Source of the DNA: Methylomarinum sp.
Lineage (GTDB): Bacteria > Pseudomonadota > Gammaproteobacteria > Methylococcales > Methylomonadaceae
Assembly: GCA_013139755.1 (NCBI GenBank)
Contig: WTAG01000499.1
Location: 1-8,098 of the forward strand
DNA length: 8,098 nt
Reading direction: 5' to 3'
This document shows, one piece after another, positions 3,344 through 8,098 of this stretch. The stretch's first letter is position 1, and each line of letters opens with the position of its first letter. The notes beneath the pieces are model-generated. The model ran no database searches, was not told the DNA's origin, and worked only from the letters and a program-made list of their open reading frames with translations. A program made the position numbers and the translations under genes.

Positions 3344-3679
3344 CTATCCTCCCGTTACTACGCCAGCAGGCGCATCATCAAAATCAAAAGTAATCAAACT
3401 ACCTTCAACATAAGTAGCCTTGCCAGCAGTAACCCAGCTATCTACAACACCCGAAAAAGCATCATCAATGCAATAGCTTGTAGTTCCAGCTTTAAACGTT
3501 GCCCCAAACATTTCCAGGTCTTCATTAACTGTAAATAGCGTTGCCTTTAACCAGCGTGCCGCCATATTTTGTAGCTTTTTATTGCCGTCCCGAATGGTGT
3601 AAGTCAGCCCTTTGGCATATTGAGTCCCGTTAAACTCACGACTTTTAAAGTCGCATAGCGCTTTAAATTTTCTAGGCAT
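3344..3679 (-). CDS. hypothetical phage protein following a duplicated gene start
   Basis: The 111-residue protein starts at ATG 3679, with GAGG seven bases upstream; this Shine-Dalgarno lies inside the last codons of the small upstream ORF. The N-terminus (MPRKFKALCDFKSREFNGTQY) suggests a small beta domain. The middle has 'NMAARWLKATLFTVNEDLEMFGATF' and the end is glycine-rich. The first 13 codons are repeated exactly in the small ORF upstream. I do not recognise the family. Placement between gp36 and other structural genes suggests a virion or head-tail accessory role. Confidence 0.7.
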   Translation of the reverse strand: MPRKFKALCDFKSREFNGTQYAKGLTYTIRDGNKKLQNMAARWLKATLFTVNEDLEMFGATFKAGTTSYCIDDAFSGVVDSWVTAGKATYVEGSLITFDFDDAPAGVVTGG

Positions 3680-3682
3680 TTT
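3641..3682. repeat. 42-bp direct repeat, copy 1
   Basis: This is a perfect 42-base match to 3789-3830. It covers the first 13 codons of the 111-residue protein gene plus three bases upstream of its ATG. The sequence after the repeat stays partly similar (aattcct versus tacttcct), covering the Shine-Dalgarno area. The offset between copies is 148 bp, not a multiple of three, so this is a duplication of a gene start rather than an in-frame protein repeat. Confidence 0.95.
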
Positions 3683-3827
3683 AATTCCTCATGGCATTCT
3701 CTAAATGCCTGTTAACTATATTTAAAATCTCTGTATCGTCAGCGTTATTTAACGCTGAGGGTAATATTGGTCTAGCTGGCAAGGTCACACTTTTAAAGTC
3801 GCATAGCGCTTTAAATTTTCTAGGCAT
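3681..3827 (-). CDS. chimeric 48-codon small ORF with duplicated N-terminus
   Basis: The ORF runs from ATG 3827 to a TAA one base before the next gene's ATG. Its Shine-Dalgarno AGGAAG lies five bases upstream. The first 13 codons (MPRKFKALCDFKS) are identical in DNA and protein to the start of the next gene. The remaining 35 residues (VTLPARPILPSALNN..., ending HLENAMRN) are unrelated to it. Two inverted repeats lie inside: 3739-3758 (9-bp arms) and 3693-3709 (6-bp arms, just upstream of the next start). It may be a small functional phage gene or the scar of a rearrangement that joined a duplicated start to the end of another gene. Coding potential is plausible because the signals are intact, but no homologue is recognised. 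Confidence 0.5.
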   Translation of the reverse strand: MPRKFKALCDFKSVTLPARPILPSALNNADDTEILNIVNRHLENAMRN

Positions 3828-4613: not shown

Positions 4614-5639
4614 TCAGTTCAACCAAGGAACAACTAACAATTCAACCGCTTTATAGTTAGTGTTATCTTCACCACCCGCTAACGTCGCTTTTTCAATCAG
4701 TGCTTTTGCCGCTGCAAAATTACCAGGGCCTACCACCAATAAATCGTATTTAATCCCTAACTTTCGGCCTTCATCTGTTTCTAATGACATCCCCGCTACA
4801 ATAGCGGCTTCAAAATTACTTGCATCTAAGGTCGCTTTAGAGCCAAAGGCTGTTTGCCATAAGCCAAAACCAACATTCACTCTTGCATCAATGCCATAAC
4901 GGAATTCTTTGCGCATAAATACAGCTTCATCATCCACTGAGGTCATGGTTGCAAAGGTGTAATCTTTACGACGTTGAAAAATAATAGGCTTTAAAGCGCG
5001 GCGGGTAGAAAGTAAAAACCAGGCAGCACCTGCACCCGCTTGCATATTACTGACCGATGCATCACCTACGGGATGATCTGTATCAAAGAAAAACTGGCCA
5101 TCAAAACAAGGTTTGGTAAAGCCTTCTCCTAACAAACCAAACACTAGTTCATCTGGATGGTCATTAGCCGCACTGCCCATTTCTTCCATTAATGGTGAAT
5201 ATACGCCGTATGAATCATCTTCGATATCATCCTTTGGAATAGCTACCGTCGCTTCAAAAGGTTCGTTTTTAATTGAATAGTCGCTTAAAGACAGACTCTT
5301 AATCTGTCTATCGCCGATCCACTTTCTTAATCTTGGCCATTGACCTAACCAGGCATACTTTTCTTCTTTAGCAGATGAAGGCACCAGTGTTGCAATCCGC
5401 TGCCATTGCGATTCATGCAGCCCTAAACCCTTCTTAAATGCGGTATTAAACGCCTGAAAAATGATGGTTAAATTAGCTTTATTTAAAATAATTCCACCAA
5501 ACATCATTGATGTCATTGCATCATTGGATAGAATCGTGAATTGGGCTATATCTATAGGTACGGCGGTTGCTGATGCCGTAAATGTTAAACAGACCATCAT
5601 TAGGCTGGCCAGAATTAACAAAGGGATTTTAAACTTCAT
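4614..5639 (-). CDS. Mu gpT-like major head (capsid) protein with N-terminal leader
   Basis: The protein has 341 residues. The gpT family region begins near residue 50 with 'ILNKANLTIIFQAFNTAFKKG' and continues with 'SQWQRIATLVPS...EKYAWLGQWPRLRKWIGDR', 'FEATVAIPKDDIEDD.YGVY' and 'FFFDTDHPVG'. These motifs are typical of the Mu-like major capsid, which assembles the icosahedral head. The start at 5639 has GGAG six bases upstream; the 14-codon-longer ATG at 5681 lies inside the previous gene and lacks support. Unusually, residues 1-26 (MKFKIPLLILASLMMVCLTF then TASATA) look like a Sec signal peptide, with K2/K4, a 16-residue hydrophobic core and an AxA site. Ordinary gpT proteins start close to 'NKANL'. 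An internal ATG pair at residues 45-46 would give that form but has no Shine-Dalgarno. Confidence 0.9.
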   Translation of the reverse strand: MKFKIPLLILASLMMVCLTFTASATAVPIDIAQFTILSNDAMTSMMFGGIILNKANLTIIFQAFNTAFKKGLGLHESQWQRIATLVPSSAKEEKYAWLGQWPRLRKWIGDRQIKSLSLSDYSIKNEPFEATVAIPKDDIEDDSYGVYSPLMEEMGSAANDHPDELVFGLLGEGFTKPCFDGQFFFDTDHPVGDASVSNMQAGAGAAWFLLSTRRALKPIIFQRRKDYTFATMTSVDDEAVFMRKEFRYGIDARVNVGFGLWQTAFGSKATLDASNFEAAIVAGMSLETDEGRKLGIKYDLLVVGPGNFAAAKALIEKATLAGGEDNTNYKAVELLVVPWLN

Positions 5640-5662
5640 TTTTATCTCCAAAAGGATTTTGA

Positions 5663-6064
5663 TTATTTGATTTCTACCCAAACGCCATCAGCTTCAACAT
5701 CAATCAGCTTTCCTGCTGCTGATCGTGTCCCTGTGCCATCGGTTGCGGCCAATGTCTGGTCATCAACGATGTAAACGGTTGCATCAATATGTGTTCTATT
5801 GATAGAGCCATCATTAGCGAATTTATAAGTGCCACGGCGAACAGCAACACTTACATCACCCGCTACACCACTTGAGTTATCGATATTTTCTTCAGCACGA
5901 CCACGGGCTTTTAATCCTGTTGCCGTTGATCCTGGTGCAGCATTTCCTGAAGCATCCAAAACCACTAACGATCCTGCATAAATTTTTGTAGCGGCCGCAA
6001 CGGGGTCAGAAACATCTTCACCCGTCCGGTATGGAGTATTACGATCTTTAGTTAATGCTGTCAT
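5663..6064 (-). CDS. small head decoration / capsid cement-type protein
   Basis: The 133-residue protein starts at an ATG overlapping the stop of the protease gene by one base (TAATG). Motifs include 'TYRTG'-like 'PYRTGEDVSDPVAAATKIYAGSLVV', 'GLKARGRAEENIDNSSG', 'VRRGTYKFAND' and 'IDATVYIVDDQTLAATDG', ending 'GVWVEI'. The 'GRA...DNS.G......V..G.Y.F' and 'VYIVDD.TV' pattern is that of small beta-barrel capsid decoration proteins encoded between protease and major head genes in many Mu-like siphophages. It probably binds the outside of the gpT lattice and stabilises it. The family is recognised by pattern and location, not proven. Confidence 0.75.
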   Translation of the reverse strand: MTALTKDRNTPYRTGEDVSDPVAAATKIYAGSLVVLDASGNAAPGSTATGLKARGRAEENIDNSSGVAGDVSVAVRRGTYKFANDGSINRTHIDATVYIVDDQTLAATDGTGTRSAAGKLIDVEADGVWVEIK

Positions 6065-6567
6065 TAGTCTTTACCGTTTGCTTTTTTATAATCTTCAACA
6101 TCAATGCCTGTTGCTGCACAAATCGTTACTTCATCAGCGGTTAAGCCGTTTTCATCTGTGACTTCAGGATCTTTGCCACCCGTTTGAGTGCCTTGCAATG
6201 CTGCAATCGGTTGGGCTTCTTTTAGATAGGCATTTAAGGCGGCAATCTCTAACGATTCAGCCCAGCCTTTTTGTGCTTCTAATAATCGGCCATCATTTAA
6301 AGCGGCGGTAATTAAATCACCACATTGCTTATCGTTGACCTGGTTAGAAAGTGCGGCCACTTGATTTTGCAAAGCAGTCATGGTTTCTACAGGCACAAAT
6401 TTAGCTGGATCGGGATTAGCACTGTCATTGGCTTTTAAGGCTGCAATTTCATCAGTCAATGGTTCCACTGATGCTGCTGCAAGCTGCATTGTTTTACAAG
6501 CAGCCAGCACTTCTTCATCGGTTGCATTGTCTGAGAGTTTCAGTAATGCCAACAATTCTTTATTCAT
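6064..6567 (-). CDS. nested in-frame scaffold protein (Mu gpZ-like)
   Basis: An internal ATG at 6567 (codon 178 of the protease gene) is preceded by GAGG five bases upstream. It would give a 167-residue protein, MNKELLALLKLSDNATDEE... to the shared stop. The sequence is Ala/Leu/Glu-rich, with a probable coiled coil 'VETMTALQNQVAALSNQVNDK' and acidic ends, which is typical for scaffold proteins. In phage Mu the scaffold gpZ is made from exactly such an internal start within gene I; the same arrangement is known for lambda C/Nu3. The internal Shine-Dalgarno is better than that of the full-length gene. The scaffold would shape the prohead and then be removed by the protease. Confidence 0.8.
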   Translation of the reverse strand: MNKELLALLKLSDNATDEEVLAACKTMQLAAASVEPLTDEIAALKANDSANPDPAKFVPVETMTALQNQVAALSNQVNDKQCGDLITAALNDGRLLEAQKGWAESLEIAALNAYLKEAQPIAALQGTQTGGKDPEVTDENGLTADEVTICAATGIDVEDYKKANGKD

Positions 6568-7098
6568 AGTGTCCTCTTCAGGGTGGGTTTGGGGTAAAAA
6601 ACTAGCTGCAGCCAACTCTATAGCTTGCATATTTTTAATAGCAGGCGAATCGGTTACAGCAACACTAATAAGCTGATTAACCGCACCTGTTGATTTGTGA
6701 TAAGTGAACAAGGGGGAGATATAAAGAAACTCTCCTTTTGCAAAATGTTTTTTAGCAGCAGCAGCCCAAGCAACATTGGTTGCAAACAGGCCTATGGATT
6801 CACGCCACTCAAGCTCTGAACCTGCAAACGTGCCAGCGGCTTCTAATGGTTTCTTATTTTTGGTAAATAGCAGGGACTGATGATCGTAATCGATCAGAAT
6901 ATTATCGTTTGTAGTTAAAGCAGCTATAACAGCTGATGCAAGCGTTGCATCTAAATGCCAAGGCCCTTCACCTGTAAGCGCACCGTCAGGCGCAGTGAAT
7001 TTGCCTGCTGGAAATAGTTGAATGGCATTGTCTTGACTGTCTTGTCCGAGAGGGAAAAGACAGGCGGCGATACCAAGTGGGCTGTTATTTTTGTTCAT
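6064..7098 (-). CDS. Mu gpI-like prohead protease/scaffold precursor
   Basis: The 344-residue protein matches Mu-like I proteins. It has 'AIQLFPAGKFTAPDG...GPW' near residues 25-47, the conserved 'NILIDYDHQSL' (about 66-76) and 'AAGTFAGSELEWRESIGLFATNVAWAAAAKKH'. 'GEFLYISPLFTYHKSTGAV' follows at about 122-140, and then a helical scaffold half. His73 in DYDHQ and Ser128 in YISP are conserved features likely to lie at the active site; I have not proven the catalytic set. It processes the prohead and is auto-cleaved. It is the first gene of the minus-strand cluster here, whereas in Mu gpG precedes it. The ATG at 7098 lacks a Shine-Dalgarno and an in-frame stop lies four codons upstream. Confidence 0.9.
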   Translation of the reverse strand: MNKNNSPLGIAACLFPLGQDSQDNAIQLFPAGKFTAPDGALTGEGPWHLDATLASAVIAALTTNDNILIDYDHQSLLFTKNKKPLEAAGTFAGSELEWRESIGLFATNVAWAAAAKKHFAKGEFLYISPLFTYHKSTGAVNQLISVAVTDSPAIKNMQAIELAAASFLPQTHPEEDTMNKELLALLKLSDNATDEEVLAACKTMQLAAASVEPLTDEIAALKANDSANPDPAKFVPVETMTALQNQVAALSNQVNDKQCGDLITAALNDGRLLEAQKGWAESLEIAALNAYLKEAQPIAALQGTQTGGKDPEVTDENGLTADEVTICAATGIDVEDYKKANGKD

Positions 7099-7156
7099 GT
7101 GGCCAGTTTAGGCCGATGGATCAGGTAAATATCGTGGGAATGAGTTCCGTGGTGAT

Positions 7157-7175
7157 AGGGGCTGTAGCCCTTTTT
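7157..7175 (+). terminator. weak plus-strand terminator-like hairpin in the divergent gap
   Basis: A short stem (AGGGGC/GCCCTT, one G-U pair) with a TGTA loop is followed by five T. It would stop plus-strand transcripts coming out of the head genes before they enter the c4/ant promoter. On the minus strand the same bases lie in the leader of the protease gene. The stem is short, so this is a weak call. The rest of 7099-7224 shows no gene. Confidence 0.3.
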
Positions 7176-7224
7176 ACACCTTAACGGGTATTTTTAGGGT
7201 TGGCAAGGTTGCTAGTTTTTTATA

Positions 7225-7253
7225 TTGACAGAATAGCAAAGTTAATCTAAATT
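7225..7253 (+). promoter_or_regulatory. sigma70-type promoter for the C4 RNA/antirepressor transcript
   Basis: A perfect -35 TTGACA (7225-7230) is followed after 17 bases by TAAATT (7248-7253), which matches four of six -10 positions. Transcription would begin near 7260, giving a leader of about 160 bases before the C4-like RNA and about 290 bases before the antirepressor start codon. The consensus -35 with ideal spacing suggests constitutive activity, as expected for a lysogenic C4-type antisense RNA. Confidence 0.7.
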
Positions 7254-7259
7254 GGTGGC

Positions 7260-7415
7260 TGGTGCTAAAAACACTTTCAAACAGCGGACGACTCTCCCGA
7301 CAGCAGAGAAACCGCAAAATAAACCCTAGTGCTTTTTGCCAACTTTGGCGAAAACATTCAATTTACTGGTTTAGGCGGTTTTTTTATGCCTGTAATTTAG
7401 GCATAAACCCCAATT
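7260..7415 (+). other. structured non-coding leader upstream of the C4-like RNA
   Basis: Several foldable elements are visible. A long-range stem AAACCGC/GCGGTTT (7309-7315 with 7375-7381) runs into a T7 tract (7379-7385), and AAACC/GGTTT (7321-7325 with 7368-7372) lies inside it. The apical 9-bp hairpin 7333-7354 has loop ACTT. A separate 9-bp hairpin at 7383-7407 has a 7-base loop. The first stem and T tract could act as an early terminator. Bases 7294-7301 (CTCCCGAC) duplicate the 3' arm of the C4 stem and could pair with its 5' arm. No convincing gene is present: the GTG-initiated frame here has no Shine-Dalgarno and overlaps the RNA. Confidence 0.5.
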
Positions 7416-7417
7416 AT

Positions 7418-7495
7418 GGTCGGGAGTGCGGAGAATACAATACCCTTCGGGGAAATAATCCTGCCTCTCTGTTTGGAGGTTTTTAGCTCCCGACC
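7418..7495 (+). ncRNA. c4: C4-family antisense RNA
   Basis: The RNA folds into a closed three-way junction. The outer stem is GGTCGGGAG/CTCCCGACC (7418-7426 with 7487-7495, 9 bp). Hairpin 1 is CCC-TTCG-GGG (7443-7452, UUCG tetraloop) and hairpin 2 is CCTC/GAGG (7464-7467 with 7476-7479). Fold, size and location directly upstream of an ant gene match the C4 RNA of phages P1/P7, a family widespread in gammaproteobacterial prophages. C4 blocks translation of the antirepressor message by base pairing. Here CCTCTCTGTTT (7464-7474) is complementary, with one bulged base, to the ant Shine-Dalgarno region AAACAGGAGG. GGGGA plus TAA (7449-7458) can pair with TTA and TCCCC in codons 4-6. An intrinsic terminator follows at once. 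Confidence 0.88.
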
Positions 7496-7522
7496 GCCCA
7501 TTTCTAAAATAAATGGGCTTTT
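7496..7522 (+). terminator. intrinsic terminator between C4 RNA and antirepressor gene
   Basis: An 8-bp stem GCCCATTT/AAATGGGC with a 7-base loop is followed by TTTTAATT. It begins at the base after the C4 outer stem and would define the 3' end of the C4 RNA. The antirepressor gene, 30 bases further on, would then be expressed only by read-through from the shared promoter. Confidence 0.8.
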
Positions 7523-7536
7523 AATTAAAAAATATC

Positions 7537-7569
7537 AAACAGGAGGTCATCATGACCGATTTAATCCCC
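7537..7569 (+). promoter_or_regulatory. C4 antisense target around the antirepressor start
   Basis: AAACAGGAGG (7537-7546) contains the strong AGGAGG Shine-Dalgarno, five bases from ATG 7552. It is complementary to 7464-7474 of the C4-like RNA. TTA (7561-7563) and TCCCC (7565-7569) are complementary to 7449-7458. The order of the two target segments is reversed relative to the RNA, as required for a colinear antisense duplex spanning the start codon. The first match is strong; the second is short and less certain. Confidence 0.65.
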
Positions 7570-8098
7570 ACCCAAACTGCCGATTTCAATGGCGAAACAG
7601 TCAGATCAGTTAATGCCCGAGCTTTACATCAATTCCTTGAAGTGGGTAAAGATTTTGCAACCTGGATAAAAGACCGTATCAACACTTATCAGTTTACTAG
7701 AGACATAGACTTTACACCGCTCCCCAATTCTGGGGAGCGAATGGATAAAGGCGTGCAGGGGTTTATCCCTGGTCTTAACCGTATTGATTACCTGCTCACT
7801 TTAGATATGGCCAAAGAACTAGCGATGTTAGAACGCTCTGAAAAAGGCCGTCAGGTACGCAAATACTTTATCGCCATTGAAAAACAATACCGCGTGGGAA
7901 ATCTGCAAGCACAGCAGATGGCTAAGTTGCTGTTACAAAGTAAGCCATTGTGGAAAAAGATTGCGCGTTACGTGGGCAAAGACCTGAATAATTATGAGAT
8001 AGGTCGATTATTGCAGTGTCATGAAAAAACCGTGCGTAGACATAAGCAACAAATGATCCAATGTGGTTTATTATCGCTGTCTACCGAACTGGCGGTGC
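7552..8098 (+). CDS. ant: AntA/AntB-type phage antirepressor, N-terminal part (runs off right edge)
   Basis: 182 codons are visible from ATG 7552 with no stop; AGGAGG lies five bases upstream. An AntA/AntB domain spans about residues 16-80: 'ETVRSVNARALHQFLEVGKD', 'FATWIKDRI..Y.F....DF', and 'GFIPGLNRIDYLLTLDMAKE'. 'LAMLERSEKGRQVRKYFIAI' follows, the usual extension of the family. Residues about 131-172 (KPLWKKIARYVGKDL, EIGRLLQCHEKTVRRHKQQM) look like a helix-turn-helix region. Such proteins inactivate phage repressors and trigger lytic growth, as P1 Ant1/2 does with C1. Expression is probably held back by the C4-like RNA and the terminator upstream. The gene runs opposite to all head genes here. 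Its repressor target lies outside the window and is unknown. Confidence 0.9.
   Translation, partial: MTDLIPTQTADFNGETVRSVNARALHQFLEVGKDFATWIKDRINTYQFTRDIDFTPLPNSGERMDKGVQGFIPGLNRIDYLLTLDMAKELAMLERSEKGRQVRKYFIAIEKQYRVGNLQAQQMAKLLLQSKPLWKKIARYVGKDLNNYEIGRLLQCHEKTVRRHKQQMIQCGLLSLSTELAV

Follow-up and report, generated by a model that had tools for sequence, protein, structure and literature searches.

On the plus strand, the right end of the window (the whole stretch of DNA analysed, 8,098 nucleotides) shows a promoter-like site followed by a leader, a structured RNA, a small hairpin and an AntA/AntB gene. The individual parts are:

7225..7253, plus strand: sigma-70-like promoter TTGACA-17-TAAATT, the candidate start of a leader-RNA-ant transcript; 10 of 12 consensus matches, a score that one site in that stretch is expected to reach by chance
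7264..7272, plus strand: a1, GCTAAAAAC, a 9-nt leader segment that is the complement of linker a' (7479-7487) in the RNA
7278..7284, plus strand: b1, CAAACAG, complement of the b' loop of the RNA, beginning 14 nt past a1, a spacing identical to that of P1
7284..7315, plus strand: candidate antiterminator, GCGG (7284-7287, touching b1) with CCGC (7312-7315), from folding
7309..7385, plus strand: leader hairpin resembling an intrinsic terminator, AAACCGC (7309-7315) with GCGGTTT (7375-7381) and a T run at 7379-7385, from folding
7418..7495, plus strand: RNA of the sRNA-Xcc1 family (RF02221), about 78 nt, from the covariance model and folding
7418-7426 with 7487-7495, plus strand: outer stem of the RNA, with the conserved core AATACAATACCC at 7434-7445, from folding
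7469..7475, plus strand: b', CTGTTTG, the hypervariable loop region of hairpin 2, from folding and complementarity
7479..7487, plus strand: a', the linker GTTTTTAGC joining hairpin 2 to the outer stem, from complementarity
7496..7518, plus strand: 3' hairpin GCCCATTT-loop-AAATGGGC, weakly terminator-like, with a TTTTAATT tail, from folding
7504..7509, plus strand: a2, CTAAAA, inside the loop of the 3' hairpin, from complementarity to a'
7536..7546, plus strand: b2, CAAACAG (7536-7542), overlapping the Shine-Dalgarno sequence AGGAGG (7541-7546), whole region CAAACAGGAGG, from complementarity
7552..8098, plus strand: ant, AntA/AntB antirepressor, ATG at 7552, 182 aa visible, open at the contig end (PF08346; phrog_5817, anti-repressor Ant)

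A sequence-only reading of this DNA had proposed a P1 immI-like switch here, with promoter, C4-like RNA, terminator and AntA/AntB gene. The gene assignment was borne out, the product matching PF08346 (AntA) at 83.5 bits against a cut-off of 27 and having two relatives in viral contigs. A promoter-like site and a 3' hairpin with a tail are likewise present, the hairpin being a weak terminator candidate. The region 7415-7525 folds with an energy of -43.4 kcal/mol (z -4.5 against shuffles). In 138 related loci among the matches listed, promoter-like sites are most frequent at distances of 75-149 nt ahead of the RNA; the -10 element of the window ends 164 nt upstream of it, a distance bin that holds seven loci. 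Two frames cross the RNA, one from ATG 7416 (65 aa, entering ant out of frame) and one from GTG 7262 (74 aa, stopping at 7486). The 56-nt gap between the RNA 3' end and the ant ATG contains no icd-like frame, with no open reading frame of at least 30 aa starting inside it, as had been claimed. It is the Shine-Dalgarno region of ant itself (7536-7546) that carries the complement to the RNA loop, again in agreement with the earlier reading, and b2 ends 9 nt before the ATG.

To the left of the RNA-ant unit, on the minus strand, lie Mu-like head genes (protease gpI, the gpT major head subunit and Gp36). The back-to-back arrangement with capsid genes that had been pointed out is present but looks incidental, and an association of the RNA with such capsids was rejected, as the RNA is carried by 1 of the 58 searched loci with a related capsid (58 of 80 loci). 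The divergent RNA-ant unit lies upstream of the protease gene (window 7098-7552), a place taken in a related locus (L284) by a different gene (5578-6105), and the RNA-ant module may therefore be an insertion. In the window, the major head subunit of the Mu-like type begins with a hydrophobic, signal-peptide-like stretch (5568-5639, minus strand), and by eye its 65%-identical relative in L284 (from 7974) has a signal-peptide-like start too. Two adjoining minus-strand open reading frames, 3344-3679 and 3681-3827, begin alike, with 13 identical residues (MPRKFKALCDFKS), the start of a gene having been partly duplicated within the block of structural genes.

An Rfam covariance search of the window identified the RNA as sRNA-Xcc1 (RF02221; 74.2 bits, cut-off 53, E 1.5e-12), the match spanning the full model (positions 1-87 of 87, window 7418-7503). 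The C4 match that had been named as a check, and whose absence was to count against the switch, did not appear: neither C4 (RF01695) nor c4-a1b1 (RF03163) matched in the window even at E<=10, nor did isrK (RF01394) at E<=10. With the Rfam library unchanged, the P1 record gave 68.8 bits for C4 and 51 bits for c4-a1b1, and RF02221 had no match in it. By family the RNA is therefore not C4, and membership of RF01695 is rejected, though an architecture of the P1 type holds. RF01695 and RF03163 form clan CL00128; RF02221 stood in the output without a clan. Our own covariance model, R1, scored the window at 80.6 bits, the window being among its training sequences, and did not match P1 c4, so that the models in either direction give no demonstration of common ancestry. 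RNAalifold missed the outer stem on alignment A3 (72 of 77 selected sequences), we think because the stem arms are out of register there, and R1 accordingly has 8 base pairs.

The likeness to immI of P1 and P7 (C4, RF01695; c4-a1b1, RF03163) lies in the layout. The P1 record is annotated with a1 and b1 (putative) in the leader, then c4, then a2 and b2 before icd, and the promoter-a1-b1-RNA-a2-b2-RBS order and the 14-nt step from a1 to b1 are the same in the window. In our own reading of its letters, P1 likewise places b' in the loop of hairpin 2 and a' in the linker that comes next. In both cases b2 is placed at the Shine-Dalgarno sequence, 10 nt from the start of icd in P1 and 9 nt from that of ant in the window, and a GCGG-CCGC-GCGG-T arrangement adjoins b1 in the leader. 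They differ in RNA family by the models tried, the window RNA having the conserved AAUACAAUACCC core, and also in that the window is without icd and has its a2 inside a hairpin loop. What survives of the proposed P1-like switch is thus the layout, the order of a1/b1/a'/b'/a2/b2 and the position of b2 at the RBS, with RF02221 taking the place of the C4 family. The role of C4 in P1 is treated in passages of PMC12197685 and PMC8546580, both C4 and c4-a1b1 are listed in a table of PMC2864571, and C4-like sRNAs of A. baumannii appear in a passage of PMC5320573.

Relatives were drawn by the exact core motif, giving at least 120 viral and at least 115 genome stretches. Of the 239 core matches listed, window included, 206 had the outer stem by our score, which 55 of 720 shuffled flanks also reached, and these 206 comprised 169 distinct RNAs. 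Among 18 sampled loci of the matches listed, 13 held 14 RNAs above the Rfam cut-off and five held none. A phylum tally of RF02221 under stricter filters found it above the cut-off in 31 of 200 genomes, a number that includes the centre genome G003, a known carrier of the RNA, and in 0 of 14 controls. A downstream open reading frame was present for 163 of the 169 distinct RNAs among the matches listed, and 102 of the 163 fell into a single protein cluster, mostly of phage antirepressor families. Its 92 representatives among the matches listed matched Bro-N (32), P22_AR_C (24), KilA-N (18), Rha (16), P22_AR_N (13), ORF6C (13) and AntA (11), multiple matches per protein being possible, and the 57 representatives outside it matched SymE (6), Rha (2) or others singly, or nothing.

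Removing from the 169 listed RNAs the 6 without an open reading frame and the 19 without a start 20-80 nt away left 144 loci, in which the median distance from RNA to start was 47 nt (among the matches listed, with starts restricted to 20-80 nt). The frame and its start were picked on length, Shine-Dalgarno sequence and nearness, and complementarity played no part. In 96 of 102 members of the antirepressor cluster among the matches listed, window included, the chosen start lay 20-80 nt after the RNA. The simpler, direct circuit without icd that had been suggested for this locus is supported as a mechanism, with the ant RBS as direct target, but is the usual arrangement in the family and not peculiar to the locus. 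In a few relatives a short frame overlaps the antirepressor gene (P22_AR_N with a 13-nt overlap in L036 and L107, Rha with an 8-nt overlap in L127) or abuts an antirepressor candidate whose Bro-N match is 0.3 bits below the cut-off (L141), which recalls icd. A 3' hairpin is found in 80 of the 144 relatives among the matches listed, compared with 23% in shuffles, and a 3' hairpin with a T run in 28 of 144, compared with 3.6%. Four short contig stretches (L267, L046, L119 and L142) each hold two RF02221-like RNAs with different loops, hinting at duplication and diversification; by eye, both RNAs of L267 precede SymE-like proteins.

With each RNA set against its own downstream RBS and against the RBSs of other members (swapped partners), hairpin 2 matched its own RBS perfectly over at least 7 nt in 98 of the 144 loci among the matches listed, compared with 4.2% for swapped partners (z 30.9, inflated by relatedness like the other z values for the family). 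Adding the linker to hairpin 2 raised this to 114 of 144 (5.8% swapped) among the matches listed. The 98 matches were spread over all classes of the matches listed (antirepressor 65/96, SymE-like 5/6, other 28/42), and in 78 of them the match ended 8-11 nt upstream of the start codon. The safer numbers are those obtained when each distinct loop is represented by a single RNA, 47 of 71 against 4.2% among the matches listed, and those from a held-out set found independently of the motif with the Rfam model in whole genomes, where 15 of 32 RBSs matched against 7.1% for swapped partners (z 7.5). The held-out loci came from five genomes chosen for holding a first-set locus and from the phylum survey genomes; 45 matches without the window left 43 with an open reading frame, and removal of 5 first-set duplicates and of 6 with starts outside 15-100 nt left 32. 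Pyrimidine-rich loops might be thought to fit any purine-rich RBS, and by eye GGAG is common to many RBSs and CU to many loops. Such chance pairing we regard as highly improbable, since swapped partners retain this bias and yet reach 7 nt in just 4.2% of cases, and the 98 matches comprise 66 different heptamers (both among the matches listed).

The linker showed the same tendency more weakly, with at least 6 nt of complementarity to the stretch between RNA and Shine-Dalgarno sequence in 42 of 144 loci among the matches listed (4.6% swapped, z 8.0), and with z -1.1 in a control against the stretch between Shine-Dalgarno sequence and ATG. In the window the pairing comprises 7 perfect pairs between b' and b2 and 6 between a' and a2; the hairpin-RBS duplex has an energy of -17.5 kcal/mol, and the hairpin pairs at least equally well with 5 of the 144 RBSs among the matches listed, its own included. 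The layout of the window recurs in three named phages, the lengths of the loop-RBS matches being read by eye: in Aaphi23 before an annotated ant gene (7-nt loop-RBS match), in Acinetobacter phage 4316 before a KilA-N gene (6 nt) and in Vibrio phage VPBES, where sRNA-Xcc1 is annotated and the downstream gene matches KilA-N (10 nt).

In the literature the family has mostly been treated as a virulence RNA of bacteria. In the parts of the papers available to us, sRNA-Xcc1 is one of four novel sRNAs of Xcc and is mapped at 88 nt (PMC2996969), it has seven homologues in Xylella (PMC12189769) and 15 copies in A. salmonicida J223 (PMC8780938), and in integron cassettes it lies upstream of symE, "suggesting a divergent regulatory mechanism" (PMC12444791). 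For EHEC, a section of PMC5331693 on low ribosomal coverage gives it tens of thousands in two table columns, unlabelled in that part of the source. It stands in tables or lists in the portions seen of PMC12370729, PMC11932112 and PMC11701678, and in the reference list only in those of PMC6557892, PMC4909258 and PMC8876359. The word "antirepressor" is absent from the sRNA-Xcc1 literature searched ("anti-repressor", checked in PMC12189769 only, gave 0), with the main 2011 paper (10.4161/rna.8.6.16690) outside that search, so that the link may exist there or elsewhere; "C4 antisense" turns up in a single paper of this literature, in the excerpts as an entry of a genome table, and SymE likewise in a single one. 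The Xanthomonas integron sRNA and the window RNA agree in being RF02221, with a full-length match above the cut-off, and differ in setting, the former being treated as a virulence-linked sRNA in several papers and reported upstream of symE in integron cassettes, the latter lying upstream of an antirepressor gene with a matching RBS. A regulator acting in trans on host genes, for which the phage location and the RBS match would be incidental, might be argued from the tie of the Xanthomonas RNA to HrpG/HrpX and from the many host targets predicted (passages of PMC2996969, PMC12444791 and PMC12189769). It leaves aside the hypervariable loop that changes together with the adjacent RBS and the prevalence of antirepressor genes downstream, and we consider it very unlikely.

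SymE/SymR, a type I toxin-antitoxin system, offers a further comparison, since there too an RNA controls a small toxin gene. SymR lies on the strand opposite to symE, whereas the RF02221 RNA sits upstream on the same strand as the gene that follows it. In the six-member SymE-like cluster of the matches listed, five RBSs match the hairpin over at least 7 nt. The passage seen of PMC12444791 describes SymR as cis-encoded.

The leaders contain a second set of complementary sites. Among the matches listed, the b1 complementarity has z 20.1 and a1 (a' against the leader) a weaker z of 6.1; both reach at least 6 nt in 32 of 141 leaders, and among these 32 the step from a1 to the b1 after it is 9-16 nt in 13 and scattered in the others. 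Of the 141 leaders among the matches listed, 124 have a terminator-like hairpin at a distance of up to 170 nt before the RNA (52.1 in block shuffles), and in 78 of the 141 (4.1 in block shuffles) its 5' arm can alternatively pair with an upstream copy of the 3' arm. In 38 of the 58 listed leaders that have this triple and a loop match of at least 7 nt, the upstream copy lies at most 8 nt from the end of the match. The triple is also present in P1 and Aaphi23, and in 14 of 27 non-Xanthomonas held-out leaders (1.2 in shuffles). In the window, the GCGG/CCGC pairing (7284-7287 with 7312-7315) has a probability of 0.99 when the leader is folded only to 7370, and once the 3' arm is made the terminator, at 0.99 in the whole leader, displaces it. 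This terminator/antiterminator beside b1 suggests that transcription attenuation may act as a second control. In the equilibrium model the terminator stays at 0.99 when a1/b1 are blocked, so that any attenuation would need to act kinetically. In duplex energy the RNA pairs more stably with its own leader (-39.2) than with the RBS (-25.8), and leader pairing could therefore compete with targeting. A mimic of the outer-stem arm in the leader (CTCCCGAC, 7294-7301) is not claimed, because at least 8 nt of such a match occur in 4 of 140 leaders among the matches listed (1.4% swapped, z 3.2) and because by eye the stretch resembles a CCCGAYAGC-like leader motif of the relatives.

The isrK RNA has a role in Gifsy-1. 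On the part of the P1 leader that includes a1/b1 and the terminator (L238, 18231-18312), the isrK model (RF01394) reaches 35.1 bits, short of its cut-off of 50, so that isrK may describe the corresponding part of a leader, and isrK and C4-type leaders may be related.

Among the held-out loci, Xanthomonas stands apart. Its 13 loci (L239 and from L241-L254) come from two genomes, G001 and G002, found by way of L159 (X. prunicola) and L147 (X. melonis), and include the first-set duplicates L241 and L246 as well as L254 with its distant start. The hairpin matches the downstream RBS over at least 7 nt in 1 of the 13 (L239, adjoining a SymE domain), whereas 12 of the 13 have a match between RNA and leader (29% swapped); the other held-out loci match in 14 of 22 at the RBS (8.4% swapped) and in 15 of 22 in the leader (20% swapped). 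In Xanthomonas the leader site is thus the co-varying one, a pattern that leader-only control would fit, or other targets. All 13 leaders have a terminator-like hairpin and one has the triple (0.8 in shuffles). Several of the Xanthomonas RNAs have a SymE domain a short way downstream. In Xanthomonas RF02221 RNAs near SymE genes, the loops differ and the RBSs are near-constant.

These leaders bear on a device working purely in cis, in which the RNA would never be released and pairing between a1/b1 and the RNA within one transcript would switch read-through into ant in the manner of an attenuator, with no immunity in trans. The terminator/antiterminator in the leader speaks for it, as do the minimum-energy fold of 7250-7575, which is dominated by leader-RNA pairing, and the leader match kept in Xanthomonas (12/13 against 29% swapped) where the RBS match is lost. 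It does not account for hairpin 2 matching the RBS so strongly, with the matched sites 8-11 nt ahead of the start codon. Partial texts moreover report the founding Xanthomonas member as a discrete RNA, end-mapped at 88 nt and about 100 nt on Northern blots (PMC2996969), and transcripts of all seven Xylella homologues as detected in cells (PMC12189769). We judge a purely cis-acting device unlikely, although less so than either chance pairing or a regulator of host genes.

The reading we favor, with good though not full confidence, is an immunity switch of the P1-immI type built on an sRNA-Xcc1 (RF02221) RNA that would target the ant RBS directly. Visible in the letters themselves are the RNA, the gene, the four sites and, across the family, the way in which loop and RBS vary together. 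The RNA loop matches the ant RBS, and many related phages and prophages show such a match as well, so the RNA most probably holds the phage in dormancy through a block on the antirepressor gene; for the steps in between, we infer expression and processing of the RNA, its action in trans, a translational block and antagonism of a repressor by AntA. One promoter would give the leader, the RNA of about 78 nt and, by read-through, ant. In the lysogen the RNA would accumulate and make two short contacts with ant mRNA, one between linker a' and a2, directly downstream of the RNA, and the other between loop b' and b2, at the Shine-Dalgarno sequence, so that ribosome loading would be blocked and, the antirepressor being absent, the repressor would remain active. 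An incoming phage with an identical loop would be silenced too, and one with a different loop would not (heteroimmunity). In a likely but less certain second step, the RNA would bind a1/b1 in the nascent leader; as b1 touches the 5' arm of the small antiterminator, binding would remove a competitor and favor the leader terminator, and transcription would stop before the RNA and ant, amounting to autoregulation.

As an RF02221 locus this one is ordinary, and its interest lies in the functional reading of the family and in the leader attenuator. New are a likely function for sRNA-Xcc1, proposed here from sequence comparison, and the leader terminator/antiterminator beside b1 with the second control that it suggests. 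More tentatively, and with somewhat less than even confidence, the sRNA-Xcc1 family as a whole may represent a widespread second branch of C4-type RNA immunity, in which an antisense switch with two sites combines a leader attenuator, with b1 touching an antiterminator arm, and an RBS block of the next gene. Such a module would guard antirepressors of many types as well as SymE toxins, the SymE copies of Xanthomonas would be run mainly from the leader, and a1/b1 of P1 would then also be attenuator targets. In several genome papers, as far as the portions seen go, RF02221 copies are discussed as virulence-linked (PMC12189769, PMC8780938). If they are instead immunity RNAs of phages and toxin cassettes, their specificity would be readable from the loop, and cross-immunity between prophages would become predictable.
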